Positions 12,703 through 20,130 of a stretch of DNA of 44,025 bases are shown piece by piece. The notes beneath the pieces were generated by a model that saw only the letters and a list, made by a program, of their open reading frames with translations, ran no database searches and was not told the origin of the DNA. Source of the stretch: Anaerolineae bacterium (GTDB taxonomy: Bacteria > Chloroflexota > Anaerolineae > Anaerolineales > E44-bin32); the NCBI GenBank assembly GCA_011174845.1, contig DUEW01000014.1:22058-66082 (forward strand). The letters run 5' to 3'. Position numbers and translations under genes: made by a program. The number at the start of each line of letters is the position of its first letter. The stretch's first letter is position 1.

Positions 12703-13599
12703 ATGAATCCAATTGAGGTGTCCCACATCGTGAAATCGTTCGGCGCCACGCAAGCTGTAGCCGACGTGTCTTTTGCTGTCCAGCGCGGCGAAATTTTCGG
12801 ATTGCTCGGCCCCAACGGAGCCGGTAAGACCACAACCATTCGGCTCATCTTGGACATCTTCAAGCCTGAAAGGGGTACCGTGTCTATTTTGGGTGGATCC
12901 ATGACTGAGGCGAAAAAAGACCGCATCGGATACATGCCAGAGGATCGTGGTCTTTATCAGGACATTGCCCTTGAGCGTTGCCTGATGTACCTGGCCACGC
13001 TGAAAGGCTTATCTAAGGTCGAAGCACATAAACGTTTAGAGGATTACTTAGAGCGCTTCGATCTGTCCGCTCACCGGAAGAAAAAGGTTAAGGAACTCAG
13101 CAAGGGTATGCAACAAAAGGCGCAGATCATCAACACCGTCCTTCACCATCCAGAGTTGATCATCATTGATGAGCCGTTCACCGCCCTTGATCCGATTAAC
13201 ACTCAATTAGTGAAAGATCTGATGCAGGAGCTGCGCAATCAGGGAACAACCATCATCATGTCAACACATCAGATGCACCAGGTCGAAGAGCTGTGCGATC
13301 GTATTGTGCTAATCGATGAGGGGAGGGATGTGCTTTACGGAAATTTGGAGGAAATCCGCCGTCAATATTCTGGCAATGCTGTATTGGTGCGCGTCGTTGG
13401 CACACTTCCATCCTTGGCAGGGGTTGAGACCATCAGCTATCACAATGGCACAACAAAATTAATGTTGATGAAGGATACCAGCCCCCAAGATGTGTTGAAT
13501 ACTTTAGTGGCCGAAAACGTGATCCTTGAGAAGTTTGAAATTGCGATCCCATCCGTGAGCGAGATTTTCATCCGCGTGGTGGAAGAAGGAGACAGGTGA
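12703..13599 (+). CDS. ABC-2 type exporter, ATP-binding subunit (NatA-like)
   Basis: This 298-residue ABC ATPase energises the two permeases encoded next. It has Walker A GPNGAGKTT at residues 36-44, a Q-loop region near IGYMPEDRGLYQD, the signature LSKGMQQK (in place of the usual LSGGQ), Walker B LIIIDEPFTALDP and the H-loop STHQMHQVEELCD. A C-terminal extension of about 80 residues resembles DUF4162, common in NatA-type ATPases. GGATAACGAG precedes the ATG. Its stop codon overlaps the start of the first permease. NatA-type systems export sodium, lipids, drugs or peptides; the substrate here is not evident. Confidence 0.93.
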   Translation: MNPIEVSHIVKSFGATQAVADVSFAVQRGEIFGLLGPNGAGKTTTIRLILDIFKPERGTVSILGGSMTEAKKDRIGYMPEDRGLYQDIALERCLMYLATLKGLSKVEAHKRLEDYLERFDLSAHRKKKVKELSKGMQQKAQIINTVLHHPELIIIDEPFTALDPINTQLVKDLMQELRNQGTTIIMSTHQMHQVEELCDRIVLIDEGRDVLYGNLEEIRRQYSGNAVLVRVVGTLPSLAGVETISYHNGTTKLMLMKDTSPQDVLNTLVAENVILEKFEIAIPSVSEIFIRVVEEGDR

Positions 13600-14831
13600 T
13601 GTCCAAGCTCTGGCTTGTCGCTCTGGATGACTTCCAACGAAATGTCTTCAAGAAAAGTTTCATCCTCGCGCTTTTAAGCGTTCCGCTATTTATTGGCTTT
13701 ACCGTCGGGCTGGGTGCCATCATGAGTTCATTGAAGAAGAACAACGCGCCAGTCGGTTACATCGATCATGCCGGTCTACTGGCGGATCCCTTGCCCGCGC
13801 ATGTGAACCCTTCTGAGAAGCCGATTGAGTTCCTTCCCTTTCAGACGGAGGGGGAAGCGCGCCAGGCGTTGGAGAGCAAAGATATTCAGGCTTATTATGT
13901 GCTGGCTCCCGATTATTATGAAACCAGCAAGATCGAATTGGTCTACCTCAAGGAACCAGGGACAAATGCCACCCGCCAATTCTACAATTTCATCCAGATC
14001 AATCTGCTGCGGGATCAGCCACCCGAAATTGCCAAGCGGGCTACGGCTGGAAGCAACGTGACCCTACGATCGCCAGATGGAAGCCTTGAATTTCCCACTG
14101 GTGGACCGACGATTGGTCAAATCATACCGATTATCCTCAGTGTTGCCTTTGTTTTCCTTCTCATGATGAGTTCAGGATCACTTATGAGCGGAGTGGTTGA
14201 GGAGAAGCAAAACCGTACCATGGAAGTGTTGATGACCTCCTTATCACCAACACAGCTTATCGGCGGTAAGGTGTTGAGCATCGTCGGCATGAGTCTTCTC
14301 CAATTAGTTACTTGGATCCTGGTTGGATTGCTAGCTGTAGCAATAGCTGGAAATGTCCTGGGTATCGAATGGTTTCAGAATCCAAGCATGGAGTGGGGGA
14401 CCGTCTTGATAGTGCTGGCAATCGCTGTCCCTTCCTTTGTGCTGTCGTCTGCCTTGATGTTCGCACTAGGCTCTACCGTAGCTGAAGCCCAGGAAGCCCA
14501 ATCGGTGGGAGCCCTCTTTTTCATGCTCCACATCATTCCTATCTATATGATTGTGGCACTGGTGGAGGCACCCAATGGCATCTTATCGGTAGTGTTAAGC
14601 CTTTTACCCTTCACGTCGCTGATAACCGTTGGTTTTCGCAGCATATTTTCGGTGGTCCCTCTTTGGCAGGTTGCCGGAAGTGTCGCGATCCAAACCCTTT
14701 GCGCTTTAGGAGCCCTATGGCTAGCCTCCCGCGCATTCAGATTGGGAATGCTTCGCTATGGTCAACGTTTACGCTTCAGTGAGATTCTTGGTAAGGCGAA
14801 GGCAGTGTCCACGAAAGTGAGTCTGTCATGA
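13599..14831 (+). CDS. ABC-2 type exporter permease (NatB-like), first
   Basis: This is a 410-residue membrane subunit. One helix near the N-terminus (SFILALLSVPLFIGFTVGLG) is followed by a large external domain of about 130 residues, then a block of five or six helices from about residue 170, the NatB/ABC-2 architecture. EEKQNRTMEVLMTSLSPTQL between helices is the conserved cytoplasmic coupling motif. The ATG at 13599 overlaps the ATPase stop as ATGA; a GTG three bases upstream is an alternative. Its 3' end overlaps the second permease by four bases. The two different permeases probably form a heterodimer. Confidence 0.92.
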   Translation: MSKLWLVALDDFQRNVFKKSFILALLSVPLFIGFTVGLGAIMSSLKKNNAPVGYIDHAGLLADPLPAHVNPSEKPIEFLPFQTEGEARQALESKDIQAYYVLAPDYYETSKIELVYLKEPGTNATRQFYNFIQINLLRDQPPEIAKRATAGSNVTLRSPDGSLEFPTGGPTIGQIIPIILSVAFVFLLMMSSGSLMSGVVEEKQNRTMEVLMTSLSPTQLIGGKVLSIVGMSLLQLVTWILVGLLAVAIAGNVLGIEWFQNPSMEWGTVLIVLAIAVPSFVLSSALMFALGSTVAEAQEAQSVGALFFMLHIIPIYMIVALVEAPNGILSVVLSLLPFTSLITVGFRSIFSVVPLWQVAGSVAIQTLCALGALWLASRAFRLGMLRYGQRLRFSEILGKAKAVSTKVSLS

Positions 14832-16111
14832 GTAAAACCCTCCACGTCCTTCGTTACGAACTGATCACAACTCTCAGCCGCAGGTCGTTCCTGCTGGTGT
14901 CTTTCGGTATCCCGCTGCTAATAATCTTGATTTTCTTCGTCATCTCGATCATGAAAAGTGACACATCTAGCACGATCGATGTTTCGTCAAACACAACACA
15001 AACGATCGAACTAGAGATTGAAGGCTACGTTGATCAAGCCGGGTTAATTCGTGTTATTCCGGAACAGATCCCCTCCGACCATCTGTTGCCCTACCTCGAT
15101 GAGGAGCACGCGTATCGGGCGTTAGAAACAGGTGAGATCGCTGCCTTTTACATCATCCCAGAAAATTACGTGGAAACGGGAGAGTTTATTTATGTTCACC
15201 CGACCTTAACCCCATCCTCGTCAGATGGTCAGGACTGGGTGATGCGTCGGACGTTGTTGGTTAACCTGCTAGATGGTGACGCCATGTTAGCGGACAAGCT
15301 TTGGAATCCGATGGACTTAAAGGTAACCAATCTGGCCCCAATGCCGCAGTATGACCGATACGCGGAGGAGGATTGCTCAACGCCTGGACCGGCTTGTGAG
15401 TCCAACGCATTGGTGCAATATATACCGTTCATCATGGCGGTGCTCTTCTATATGTTCATCACGATGGGATCCAGCCTTCTGATCAGGAATGTAAGCAGCG
15501 AGAAGGAAAACATGGTGATGGAGATCTTGATGCTCTCGGTCCATCCACGTCAAATGCTGACCGGCAAACTCGTGGGTCTTGGGATAGCCAGTTTGCTTCC
15601 AACCATCGCTTATTTGGGCGCAGGATACATCGTACTTCGTTTAGGTGGAGGCGTGCTCAACCTGCCAAGCGAACTCACCATTCCGCCCTCGCTTTTGGTA
15701 TGGGGGATAGTGTTTTTTGTCCTTGGCTATGCTGTATATGCGAGCCTGATGGCCGGCGCAGGAGCACTTCTACCCAACATGAAGGAGATCACACAGGCCA
15801 CCTGGGTGGTCATGATCCCGTTGTTTGTCGGTTATATGGTTGCACTGATGGCGTCTGGTGAGGCTCCTCATGGCGCTCTGCCAACTGCATTGAGCCTTTT
15901 CCCGCTGACCGCGCCGATTGTGATGATCATGCGTTTGACCATCGGTGGTGTGCCTCTATGGCAAATTTTGCTGGCAGTGGGATTGATGATGCTCACAGCT
16001 GTTTTCGTGGTACGGGCTGTCGCGAGGATGTTCCGTGCCCAGGTGCTGCTCTCAGGTCAACCATTCAGCGCCAGGCGATATACCAGGGCACTACTGTTCG
16101 GTCGAATGTAG
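14828..16111 (+). CDS. ABC-2 type exporter permease (NatB-like), second
   Basis: This is a 427-residue membrane subunit with the same layout as its neighbour: an N-terminal helix (SFLLVSFGIPLLIILIFFVI), an external domain to about residue 190 containing DCSTPGPACESN, and a C-terminal helix bundle with the coupling motif SSEKENMVMEILMLSVHPRQ. The start overlaps the previous stop as ATGA, a sign of translational coupling. The two cysteines in the external loop could form a disulfide. It is followed 53 bp downstream by the zinc-ribbon repeat protein, probably in the same transcript. Confidence 0.92.
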   Translation: MSKTLHVLRYELITTLSRRSFLLVSFGIPLLIILIFFVISIMKSDTSSTIDVSSNTTQTIELEIEGYVDQAGLIRVIPEQIPSDHLLPYLDEEHAYRALETGEIAAFYIIPENYVETGEFIYVHPTLTPSSSDGQDWVMRRTLLVNLLDGDAMLADKLWNPMDLKVTNLAPMPQYDRYAEEDCSTPGPACESNALVQYIPFIMAVLFYMFITMGSSLLIRNVSSEKENMVMEILMLSVHPRQMLTGKLVGLGIASLLPTIAYLGAGYIVLRLGGGVLNLPSELTIPPSLLVWGIVFFVLGYAVYASLMAGAGALLPNMKEITQATWVVMIPLFVGYMVALMASGEAPHGALPTALSLFPLTAPIVMIMRLTIGGVPLWQILLAVGLMMLTAVFVVRAVARMFRAQVLLSGQPFSARRYTRALLFGRM

Positions 16112-16164: not shown

Positions 16165-16782
16165 ATGTATTGCCCGAACTGTCGATGTGAATTCGAGGGA
16201 TGGGTTGGTAGGTGTCCCAATTGTAAGACGCCGTTAATAGATGAATCGCCTCACGTTCAAGAGGACGTAAGCAAACCGATTTCCTACGAGACGATGGTTG
16301 ATCTGGTGAGAGAAAATGGTGGGCAATGGAGTATTGATCTATCAACTACGGATGTTGGTACGCAGAAAAAATGGGGATTTCCGTATTATGGCTATCGATT
16401 TGCGTGGGTGAAACGAATGCAAGGGACCATTGATGAAATCTCAGTTGATTTGTCGACCACGGAAGTTGGCACGGAAAAGAGATGGACATTCCCGTATTTT
16501 GGATATGGATACGCTTGGGAGAAGAGAATGGAGGGGAATATTGGTGGAAATATGATTTCTTTAGCAGCCACAAATGTTCGGAGAGAAAGAAAATGGCGTT
16601 TCCCTTATTCAGGCTATGGATATGCATGGACGCAAGAGCTGTCCGGTGAATGTGGTGCCGAATTAAGGGCAACGCTGATAGCCACGGATGTCAGCAGAAA
16701 ACAGGGATGGCGTTTCCCCTATTTTGGTTATGGATCTGCCTGGACGCAGAAGGGGATTCTCACATTGACAGCAAATGAATAA
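16165..16782 (+). CDS. Zinc-ribbon protein with four FPYxGY repeats, unknown function
   Basis: This 205-residue protein matches no family I can name. It begins with a zinc-ribbon pair, CPNC at residues 3-6 and CPNC at 17-20. After a linker come four tandem repeats of about 37 residues, with FPY at residues 72, 109, 146 and 184. The consensus is T-[DEN]-V-x4-[KR]-W-x-FPY-x-GY-[GR]-x-AW, with short beta-prone segments between (SIDLSTTDVG, SVDLSTTEVG, ISLAATNV). The repeats suggest a beta-propeller-like or beta-solenoid fold rich in exposed aromatics. AAGGAG precedes the ATG at good spacing. Its position directly after two ABC-2 permeases suggests a cytoplasmic partner or regulator of that exporter. 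Confidence 0.85.
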   Translation: MYCPNCRCEFEGWVGRCPNCKTPLIDESPHVQEDVSKPISYETMVDLVRENGGQWSIDLSTTDVGTQKKWGFPYYGYRFAWVKRMQGTIDEISVDLSTTEVGTEKRWTFPYFGYGYAWEKRMEGNIGGNMISLAATNVRRERKWRFPYSGYGYAWTQELSGECGAELRATLIATDVSRKQGWRFPYFGYGSAWTQKGILTLTANE

Positions 16783-17134
16783 TTCTGGATCCTTTCACCA
16801 TTCTCCTATATTGACTGATTTTTACCTCCTCCAGCTAAAGAGAATCCTGGACAAGGAATAATCCTCAGCGAACATTTTTCCATAATGCCGCTCGTCCTAA
16901 CGTCTACGATTAAAATATTAAATAAAATTGGACACTTGACCAATTCGAAAACCCCCCAGATGTCGGATGAAACTGGGGGGTGAATGTTTTATCTTATTTC
17001 TAGGCTGGAAATCCGTTTGTGGCGATAAGGACCGTAAATCTAAATCCAAGGAATGGGGATTATGATATTTATTTTGTTGCACCGACGACCTAGCGATTTT
17101 TCTGAACGATGTTCTTACGATAGATAAGGGAAGC
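16783..17134. other. 352-bp intergenic region holding composite element copy 2
   Basis: The region separates the first exporter operon from the second. Apart from the palindrome/hairpin pair at 16926-16980 it is AT-rich and without a recognisable gene. The promoter for the downstream ATPase gene probably lies between 16981 and 17120; none is assigned. Confidence 0.5.
16926..16980 (+). terminator. Composite element copy 2: palindrome plus C-rich hairpin
   Basis: Palindrome arms AATTGG (16926-16931) and CCAATT (16940-16945) are followed six bases later by a hairpin with arms CCCCCCAG (16952-16959) and CTGGGGGG (16973-16980). Both the palindrome core (GGACAC.TG.CC) and the hairpin loop (ATGTC.GATG) match copy 1 at 10885-10940. 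Only a weak T-rich tail follows, so termination is less certain than for copy 1. Confidence 0.65.
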
Positions 17135-18109
17135 ATGAAAATGGAAATGTCTGACAATTGGGTCATCAATACACACAGTCTAAGTAAGTCCTATAAGGAC
17201 GTGGAGGCTCTCAAGTCACTCGACTTGAAGGTTGCCAAGAATTCAATTTTCGGTTTCTTGGGACCGAACGGCGCTGGAAAAACTACGACGATCAAACTTT
17301 TATTGGGCTTGATAAGACCTACCAGCGGTGGCGGGAGCGTCTTTGGTCACGATATTCTCCGTGACAACGTGGAGATCCGTAAGCGTATCGGGTACCTGGC
17401 CCAGAACCCGAGTTATTACAAGCATATGACAGCCCGTGAGACCCTCCGCTTTAGAGCTCGTTTCTTCTATACAGGGCCGAAGGATGCATTGGAGAATCGT
17501 ATCGCCGAAACGCTCGAAATGGCCGGGTTGACGAATAAAGCCGATCGACCAATCAAAGGTTTCTCCGGAGGTGAGCTTCAACGGTTAGGGATTGCCCAAG
17601 CCCAGGTTAATCATCCCGACTTGCTCATCTTAGACGAGCCTGCGGCTAACCTCGATCCGGGGGGGCGTAGGGACGTGCTGGAGGTGATGGAGCGGCTGCG
17701 GAAGTATACCACCATTTTCTACTCCACACACATCCTGGACGATGTCCAGCAGGTTAGCGATACCGTCGCCATTCTCAATCACGGCGAACTCGTCGCACAA
17801 GCGCCCATGGAGGAATTGTTAGCTGGGAACGACGGAACGATTTATACCGTGGTCATGGAAGGTGATCCCAGTGGGGCACAGGCTCGAGTCACCCGAAGGG
17901 AATGGGTGTCGAGTATCGATACTACTTCGATGAATGGTCGGATCACCTGGCGAGTTCATGTGACGGATGAGGAGGTTGCTAAATCGGATTTGCTGCGTTT
18001 GATCCTGGCTGATGAAGATATCAAGGTGATTGAGTTTGGGCGTAAACAGTACGAACTCGAAGAGGTGTTTTTACGCATTGTGGAAGGGGAAGAAAATGTC
18101 CAGTATTAG
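17135..18109 (+). CDS. ABC-2 type exporter, ATP-binding subunit, second system
   Basis: This is a 324-residue ABC ATPase with Walker A GPNGAGKT at residues 43-50, Q-loop region YLAQNPSYYKHM, signature FSGGELQR, Walker B LLILDEPAANLDPGGRRDV and H-loop YSTHILDDVQQV. A long C-terminal extension follows. AAGGG precedes the ATG at 17135 by four bases; in-frame ATGs at 17141 and 17147 are alternatives. The 3' end overlaps the permease gene by 14 bases, so the two are coupled. The arrangement resembles NosF/CcmA-type ATPase plus ABC-2 permease pairs; the substrate is unknown. It is clearly a separate system from the one at 12703. Confidence 0.92.
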   Translation: MKMEMSDNWVINTHSLSKSYKDVEALKSLDLKVAKNSIFGFLGPNGAGKTTTIKLLLGLIRPTSGGGSVFGHDILRDNVEIRKRIGYLAQNPSYYKHMTARETLRFRARFFYTGPKDALENRIAETLEMAGLTNKADRPIKGFSGGELQRLGIAQAQVNHPDLLILDEPAANLDPGGRRDVLEVMERLRKYTTIFYSTHILDDVQQVSDTVAILNHGELVAQAPMEELLAGNDGTIYTVVMEGDPSGAQARVTRREWVSSIDTTSMNGRITWRVHVTDEEVAKSDLLRLILADEDIKVIEFGRKQYELEEVFLRIVEGEENVQY

Positions 18110-18893
18110 CTCGCTTCAAATCGTCAATGAGTCTCCCTGGCGCAGCGGCTTCATGAACATGGTACGCAAGGAGAATAGCTTGTGGTGGGGTACCCGTAAA
18201 TGGTGGGTGCAGAGCTTGATTTGGTTCCTGATCTTGAATGGAATAGTCGTCCTCCTTCTCTGGATCGTGCCTGCCGTGGATAAGGAAGAAGCTCCGAGAG
18301 CATCAGAAGTCCTTGGTGTCTTTTTCGGTTTTTTTGGAGCCCTTAGCACCTTTGGCGTGATGATCCTCATGCAAAGCGCGATCGTGGGTGAAAAAAATTC
18401 AGGAACGGCGGCATGGATCATGTCAAACCCGGTTTCTCGTGGGGCCTTCATCTTAGCCAAGCTTATCGCCAACGGGATCGCAATTCTAACCATCATCGTT
18501 GTATTGCAGGGCCTCATCGGCTACATGCAATTTTTCCTGCATGGAGAAATCGTTCTGCGACCGATACCTTTCATGGCTGCACTTGGTCTACAGGGTCTTC
18601 ATCTGATGTTCTACCTTACCCTGGCATTGGTGCTCGGTACCTTTTTCAACGGTAGAGGGCCCGTGATCGGGATATCGATCGCCGTCCTCATCGGACAGGA
18701 TTTGCTAGGGCAATTAATTGCGATGAAATTTCCATGGTTTCCTACGCTGATGCCGATGCGGTTGGTAGATATGGCATTGCCTTTAGCTCAAGGTGGGACG
18801 CTATCTTCATATACCCCTGTGATCGCCACCACACTGATGTCGCTGTCGTTCCTTTTGCTGGCGATATGGCGTTTCAGGCGGGAGGAATTCTGA
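18096..18893 (+). CDS. ABC-2 type exporter permease, second system
   Basis: This is a 265-residue integral membrane protein. The start at 18096 is preferred over an in-frame start at 18030 because GGAAGGGGAAG precedes it and because it gives a normal overlap with the ATPase gene. Six hydrophobic segments are seen, including SLIWFLILNGIVVLLLWIV, FFGFFGALSTFGVMILM and ILTIIVVLQGLIGYMQFF. EKNSGTAAWIMSNPVSRGAF is the cytoplasmic coupling motif of ABC-2 permeases of the NosY kind. There is no large external domain, unlike the permeases at 13599 and 14828. It pairs with the ATPase encoded just upstream. Confidence 0.9.
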   Translation: MSSISSLQIVNESPWRSGFMNMVRKENSLWWGTRKWWVQSLIWFLILNGIVVLLLWIVPAVDKEEAPRASEVLGVFFGFFGALSTFGVMILMQSAIVGEKNSGTAAWIMSNPVSRGAFILAKLIANGIAILTIIVVLQGLIGYMQFFLHGEIVLRPIPFMAALGLQGLHLMFYLTLALVLGTFFNGRGPVIGISIAVLIGQDLLGQLIAMKFPWFPTLMPMRLVDMALPLAQGGTLSSYTPVIATTLMSLSFLLLAIWRFRREEF

Positions 18894-19251
18894 GGTTTGC
18901 TTATTAAGTGAGAGGGAATAGCAGAGAGGTTGTAGCGGAGGTACAGCCATGATTGTTCAAAAAGAACGCTTAAGAGGTATCCCTAAGAACATGTTAAGGT
19001 TGCGACTGAGGATTAAGGGAATAAAAGGATATTCGTACGTCGGACATGAAGTGAGTGACAAAGTACGGCACGTTGAACCTGTTGACATCATGGTTCAGCG
19101 CTTACGCCTTGGTCATTCTTGACCAAGGATATGCTTTGAAGAAAGGTCGCACTGATGAGGAGAATTGAGACGACCGGCTCCAATGACAGGTCAAGTGGTA
19201 TCTCCTCATATGAGCGCTTGCTAATTGGTTGCTGCTAGTTGGGAGAGAGAC
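18894..19251. other. Intergenic region between exporter and patatin gene, with one small ORF
   Basis: No hairpin terminator is seen after the permease gene. The stretch holds the 57-codon ORF at 18949-19122 described separately. Nothing else was recognised in it. Confidence 0.4.
18949..19122 (+). CDS. Possible small basic protein (57 aa)
   Basis: ATG at 18949 is preceded by GCGGAGG at seven-base spacing, a strong ribosome-binding site. The 57-residue product is basic (MIVQKERLRGIPKNMLRLRL at the N-terminus) and contains IKGYSYVGHEVSDKVRHVEP further on. There is no membrane helix or signal peptide. No family is recognised. It lies between the second exporter operon and the patatin gene. Support comes from the ribosome-binding site only, so it may be spurious. 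Confidence 0.4.
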   Translation: MIVQKERLRGIPKNMLRLRLRIKGIKGYSYVGHEVSDKVRHVEPVDIMVQRLRLGHS

Positions 19252-20130
19252 ATGAGCAGGAAATTACGACGTCCAGTGGTAGGGCTCGCATTAAGCGGGG
19301 GTGGCGCACGAGGGCTGGCGCACATCGGTGTGCTCAAAGTGCTGGAACGCGAGGGTATCCCGATCGATTGTCTCGCCGGTTCGAGCATGGGGGGCATCAT
19401 CGCTGCGGTGTACGCGGCTGGCGTCTCGCTAACGGAGCTGGAGGCGGAAGCAAATCGCATGGCCAGGCTTCGCGAGCTCGTAAAACTTGTGGATCTTCTA
19501 CCCCCTCGCCGGGGTTTGTTGGCCGGGAATCGCCTGCGTGCATTCCTTTCGAGGTTCGTTGATCCAAGTCTTACCTTTCACGACCTCCATTTGCCGCTGG
19601 CCCTTACAGCGGTTGATCTCCTGAGTGGGGAGGAGATCCGTCTTGACGAGGGACCCGTGATCGATGCGATCCTTGCCACATGTGCGTTTCCTGGGGTTTT
19701 GCCACCTGTGGCATCGAACGGTCATTGGTTGGTGGATGGTGGATTGTTGAACAATCTGCCGGTAGATGTAGTACGTAATCTTGGTGCCGAGGTCGTGATT
19801 GCCAGCAATGTCACACCGGATTCGGTGCAAGAAAATCCTCTTGAGGCCCCAGAAACACTGCGCTTACTGCCGGATTTCTTATGGGATTCCTATCGAGCCA
19901 TCACGCTGCTTGGCAGAGCACTAACCCGGATGAGGATTGTCGACGCAAGGCCGGAGGTTCTTATCCAGCCACCTCTTCCATCTGATATTGGGATCTTTTC
20001 CAGCTTTCCCCGAGCTGGCGAGATCATTGAAACCGGTGAGCGAGAAGCTAACAGATGCTTACCCCGGCTGATCGAAGCCACACGCCCCGGGGTGGATTCG
20101 ATGATTCCTGTCGCCATCGGAGGAAGGTGA
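19252..20130 (+). CDS. Patatin-like phospholipase family protein
   Basis: This is a 292-residue serine lipase/acyl hydrolase of the patatin (RssA-like) family. The oxyanion-hole motif GGGARG is at residues 16-21, nucleophile Ser45 lies in GSSMG, and catalytic Asp162 is in VDGGLLNNLPVDV, so the Ser-Asp dyad is intact. The ATG at 19252 is chosen because GGGAGAGAG precedes it and the protein then begins just before the conserved core; an upstream TTG at 19225 is less likely. There is no signal peptide, so a cytoplasmic or inner-membrane-face location is expected. It sits among exporter and membrane-protease genes, suggesting lipid turnover at the membrane. Confidence 0.93.
   Translation: MSRKLRRPVVGLALSGGGARGLAHIGVLKVLEREGIPIDCLAGSSMGGIIAAVYAAGVSLTELEAEANRMARLRELVKLVDLLPPRRGLLAGNRLRAFLSRFVDPSLTFHDLHLPLALTAVDLLSGEEIRLDEGPVIDAILATCAFPGVLPPVASNGHWLVDGGLLNNLPVDVVRNLGAEVVIASNVTPDSVQENPLEAPETLRLLPDFLWDSYRAITLLGRALTRMRIVDARPEVLIQPPLPSDIGIFSSFPRAGEIIETGEREANRCLPRLIEATRPGVDSMIPVAIGGR

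Follow-up and report, generated by a model that had tools for sequence, protein, structure and literature searches.

A zinc-ribbon protein from Anaerolineae with four FPYxG repeats that probably fold into an eight-stranded beta-barrel

Directly downstream of two ABC-2 permease genes in an Anaerolineae genome lies a gene whose product combines a short cysteine-rich N-terminus with four regularly spaced aromatic repeats, which raises the question of what kind of protein this is and whether it has anything to do with the exporter at its side. The window analysed here is a stretch of 44,025 nucleotides of contig DUEW01000014.1, and the gene occupies positions 16165..16782 on its + strand, encoding a protein of 205 aa with an N-terminal zinc ribbon, a short helix and four repeats of about 37 aa.

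The gene and the parts of its product

A ribosome-binding site (AGGAG) is located close 5' of the open reading frame, and the homologues reveal dN/dS values of 0.08-0.18 where measurable, i.e., purifying selection; thus, the product is a real, selected protein. Downstream of the gene, CCCCCCAG...CTGGGGGG at 16951..16981 (+) may form a hairpin (RNA fold -18.8 kcal/mol, z -1.7), which faintly suggests a possible intrinsic terminator; a pattern scan for promoters and terminators found no sites above shuffles and did not flag this hairpin. The zinc ribbon is itself the N-terminus, with no leader or signal peptide ahead of it, and the protein has no hydrophobic segment, its highest 19-residue Kyte-Doolittle mean being 0.83.

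Judged by its cysteine pattern, C3xxC6xC8 ... C17PxC20, the N-terminal segment (residues 1-25, 16165..16239, +) resembles a short rubredoxin/RadA-type zinc ribbon. The CPNC...CPNC ribbon claimed by the sequence-only reading is indeed present, and C3, C6, C8, C17, and C20 are invariant in all ten full-length homologues, which share the pattern CxxCxC-EF-x-GW-xxx-CPxC. Both CxxC knuckles (C3/C6 and C17/C20), by which rubredoxin/RadA-type ribbons are recognised, are kept in these homologues. The zinc ribbons of RadA/Sms, LapB, and NF049953 are alike in their CxxC...CPxC spacing and give weak profile matches over the first ~20-35 residues, but the rest of those proteins is unmatched, and they do not share the extra invariant Cys8 of the window family. 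No curated cut-off of Pfam or NCBIfam was reached by the ribbon: the best NCBIfam match, NF049953 (E 4e-4, residues 1-34), scored 20.4 bits where the model's cut-off lies at 130, and Pfam zinc ribbons stayed sub-threshold on the window protein with at most 12.2 bits. Residue 8 (window 16186-16188) is the fifth invariant cysteine, and NF049953 carries the family name "(seleno)protein DG"; due to this name, the ribbon may have redox relatives. A conserved helix leading into the repeats is predicted by the structure models at about residues 40-52 (16282..16320, +; SYETMVDLVRENG), spanning residues 41-50 in the model of the window protein and 7-16 in that of a homologous domain.

The four repeats follow at 16324..16434 (residues 54-90), 16435..16545 (residues 91-127), 16546..16656 (residues 128-164), and 16660..16770 (residues 166-202), all on the + strand, the fourth being the most diverged. 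Their regular spacing, as noticed at first sight, is beyond doubt: the FPY cores (FPYxGYGxAW) stand at residues 72, 109, 146, and 184, at distances of 37, 37, and 38, and pairwise BLOSUM62 scores lie at 75-143, whereas 1000 shuffles never exceeded 49. Across 46 repeats, the consensus reads [VI]-x-L-x-[AT]-T-x-V-G-[RK]-x-K-K-W-x-F-P-Y-x-G-[FY]-G-[YF]-A-W-x-K-x-M-x-G. The core originally given as KW-x-FPY-x-GY-x-x-AW stood up in part, as repeat positions G23 and W28 are invariant in 46/46 repeats but the tryptophan of the KW ahead of FPY is found in only 24, making it common rather than constant. The repeat domain is basic, with a pI of 9.0-10.2 in all nine proteins measured. Across lineages, repeats resemble each other more when they hold the same position (49%) than when they hold different ones (37%), which indicates that the duplication is older than the spread of the family.

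An undescribed family in Chloroflexota

Neither a PDB sequence nor any family of Pfam, NCBIfam, PHROGs, or PADLOC matches the repeats, and a Pfam scan of 12 members with E values up to 10 returned weak ribbons and scattered single matches alone. A profile of 37 columns built from the repeat and run over 298 genomes of the class recovered just two family members, besides short single matches (E 0.005-0.04); among the matches inspected were a serine-hydrolase-like and a glucosidase-like protein or frames with stops, and they were taken as chance, not as the repeat in other proteins. Within the source genome, no second copy of the repeat was detected, the gene at 16165-16782 alone carrying it. 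The literature searches turned up no mention of the motif FPYFGYG, and nothing on the family under the ribbon or DUF3224. The description as apparently undescribed thus holds, and the searches support a real and new family. Zero matches were obtained when phages, plasmids, and viral contigs were searched, so these data lend no support to a mobile or viral origin.

In total, 12 copies were found in 11 genomes, all of Chloroflexota: three genomes of the window's genus, three of a second genus of the same family, three of one genus of family f14, and one each of families f13 and f56, the latter a family of another order than that of the window. With the window's own genome included, draws of genomes found the family in 10/400 genomes of the order, 2/396 of the class, and 1/400 of the phylum, so that it is sparse and patchy. 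The restriction to Chloroflexota holds for what was searched; beyond that it is only weakly tested, because the GTDB genome-contig scan relied on exact short peptides, its two relatives, both from Chloroflexota, being already among the 12 copies. The copy from f56, though from another order, is closer to that of the window (55% identity) than the same-order copies of f13 (49%) and f14 (45-53%), which hints at acquisition by transfer, while the tree leaves the placement of f56 open. Genome G025 holds two differing, mutually similar partial copies at contig ends, L029:1-543 (G025:C274) and L030:4582-5070 (G025:C227), possibly a tandem duplicate or the product of a mixed assembly.

The predicted fold and its known counterparts

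AlphaFold2 reached a pLDDT of 67.5 for the window protein (8 rows) and of 87.7, with a pTM of 0.79, for the G587 homologue's repeat domain (12 rows). The latter, confident model displays one helix and eight antiparallel strands of 15-18 residues in meander order, each repeat forming one beta-hairpin with FPYxG at the turn; eight antiparallel strands in meander order are also predicted for the window protein. As each repeat corresponds to one two-stranded hairpin and there are four of them, the repeat domain is probably an up-and-down eight-stranded beta-barrel. This is at odds with the small propeller or solenoid first envisaged: the two strands per repeat in the G587 model do not fit a propeller with one four-stranded blade per repeat, and the hairpin-by-repeat meander of the G587 model contradicts a solenoid.

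The best structural match of both models is 2q03, an uncharacterised eight-stranded barrel from Shewanella denitrificans (window model: Z 8.1, 120 residues, 4.1 A; homologue model: Z 7.4, 117 residues, 4.1 A), which differs in its 6-7% identity, its shorter chain (131-133 residues), and its absence from all sequence searches. AbyU was matched at Z ~6 and 6.3 by the window and homologue models, respectively, and OmpX at Z 6.7 by the window model only. Together with PyrI4, allene oxide cyclase, and dirigent proteins (Z about 4-6), AbyU represents barrels that are likewise soluble, eight-stranded, and antiparallel; we know of no zinc ribbon in these matched chains. The barrel is taken to be closed because both models matched closed-barrel structures at Z 6-8, a range in which common arrangements arise without kinship. 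Plain Foldseek against the PDB gave nothing at E 0.001 for either model, and no sequence, profile, or PDB-sequence match connects the repeats with the AbyU, PyrI4, allene oxide cyclase, dirigent, or 2q03 families; the modelled likeness therefore speaks to fold class and not to ancestry. A viral fold library also yielded nothing at E 0.001, its top rows (TM < 0.3) not being credited.

The two faces of the strands differ in hydrophobicity (0.38 versus -0.41), one of them carrying V/I, L, F/Y, W, and M at conserved positions. Origin of a barrel via repetition of one hairpin has been discussed mostly for outer-membrane barrels (PMC6340704, PMC6193526). OmpA and OmpX are eight-stranded barrels from repeated beta-hairpins, as predicted for the window family (PMC6340704); compared with them, the window protein has no leader peptide, its N-terminus is cysteine-rich, and its hydrophobic face is probably inside.

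Possible roles and the exporter question

Our tentative first choice, to which we give clearly less than an even chance, is a binding barrel in the cytosol that is tethered through the zinc ribbon and turns a basic, aromatic rim towards an anionic partner. The ribbon would be joined through the helix to a closed, cytosolic barrel built from four copies of one hairpin, which would act as a binding module. The conserved strand face would form its packed inside, while the four FPYxG turns, each after a basic stretch (R/K-x-K-K), would give one end an aromatic, basic rim. The rim would most likely bind an anionic partner, such as a nucleic acid, a phosphorylated metabolite, or a membrane headgroup, and the ribbon might provide a further contact with a protein or a nucleic acid. 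The basic pI and the aromatic turns are only suggestive of such rim binding.

Second to binding of a nucleic acid or another anionic partner, we would rank a barrel, or even an enzyme, with a small or hydrophobic ligand inside, in the manner of allene-oxide-cyclase, AbyU, or lipocalin-type barrels. The nearest solved folds include such proteins, and Trp, Tyr, Phe, and Met would abound on the inside face; yet no sequence kinship to them was found, the inside may be packed full, and a conserved catalytic polar set is not evident, leaving this a possible but somewhat unlikely role. A more specific form of the rim reading, in which the protein would be the soluble counterpart of the hairpin-amplified outer-membrane barrels, a zinc-ribbon-fused cytosolic barrel binding a polyanion such as nucleic acid through its four-fold rim of aromatic and basic residues, we regard as rather unlikely.

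The position of the gene had also suggested a functional link to the exporter, and this holds no further than an operon-like gene order in one genus and a single copy next to an unrelated exporter. An ABC ATPase and two ABC-2 permeases (12703..16111, +; Pfam ABC_tran, DrrA1-3_C, and ABC2_membrane_3) lie immediately 5' of the gene in all three genomes of genus g1 that carry it, loci L008 and L021 having the same order as the window, with operon-like gaps of about 40-53 bp. One G025 copy is also preceded by an ABC gene and two permeases, but the latter do not align with those of the window and form an unrelated set; in G578, an ABC ATPase and a permease are several genes off. The expectation that homologues always adjoin ABC-2 exporters failed, and homologues lacking an exporter link, which the sequence-only reading had named as grounds for its refutation, do exist: seven copies (G024, G026, the second copy of G025, G203, G575, G587, and G675) lack an ABC-2 gene next to them, being found instead near genes for a metallo-beta-lactamase fold and DUF2807, for MFS and DUF4037, for pyruvate-dehydrogenase-like proteins (named by eye from sequence) and SfLAP, and for adenine deaminase. 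Conversely, five genomes of the window's family (G011, G012, G015, G018, and G021) contain permeases 49-55% identical to those of the window while the gene is absent, a different gene sitting 3' of the permeases in G011 and G012. The source genome has 25 ABC2_membrane_3 matches, so chance adjacency is not rare. The constant neighbourhood expected of an ABC-2 exporter component is thus not seen across the copies; due to the seven copies without such a neighbour and the permease relatives without the gene, the link is local to one genus and not family-wide. In genus g1, the protein may be co-produced with the exporter, but would not be a general part of such exporters, and a co-expressed accessory or regulator of the adjoining exporter appears improbable.

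Directly 3' of the gene (window 17135-18893) lie genes for another ABC ATPase and a permease-like protein, both named by eye, in whose place G004 (L021) has other genes; a patatin-like phospholipase gene stands 3' of the exporter genes (window 19225-20130). The G025 ABC-2 permeases adjoin a protein in which an ABC ATPase domain is joined to a LytTR domain for DNA binding (L029:4855-5847).

In genus g13 (L026:7780-11438, L027:877-4501), the gene has a DUF2807 lipoprotein on one side and a gene of the metallo-beta-lactamase fold on the other, and a LiaF-like gene lies close by, a neighbourhood that looks envelope-stress-like. A role as an envelope-stress factor would agree with the DUF2807 lipoprotein 5' and the LiaF-like protein near the G026 copy, with the same order in G024 and part of it in G025; both kinds of neighbours are absent beside copies outside g13, which makes this role a long shot. 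Least credible by far is a membrane-inserted barrel of the OmpA/OmpX kind: the fold matches include OmpX, OmpA, and NspA, and the strands are long and of alternating polarity, but the zinc ribbon leaves no space for an N-terminal signal peptide, a metal site rich in cysteines would be expected to be cytosolic, and Anaerolineae are generally held to be without a Gram-negative outer membrane.

Being rare, restricted to Chloroflexota in the searched data, and without an assigned function, the family is of limited practical importance. Its fold class is already known; what is new is the family, a small and unnamed domain family missed by current profile libraries, in which four hairpins probably make up an eight-stranded barrel. 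It would offer an example of a beta-barrel, probably soluble, in which descent from one repeated hairpin is still legible in the sequence.
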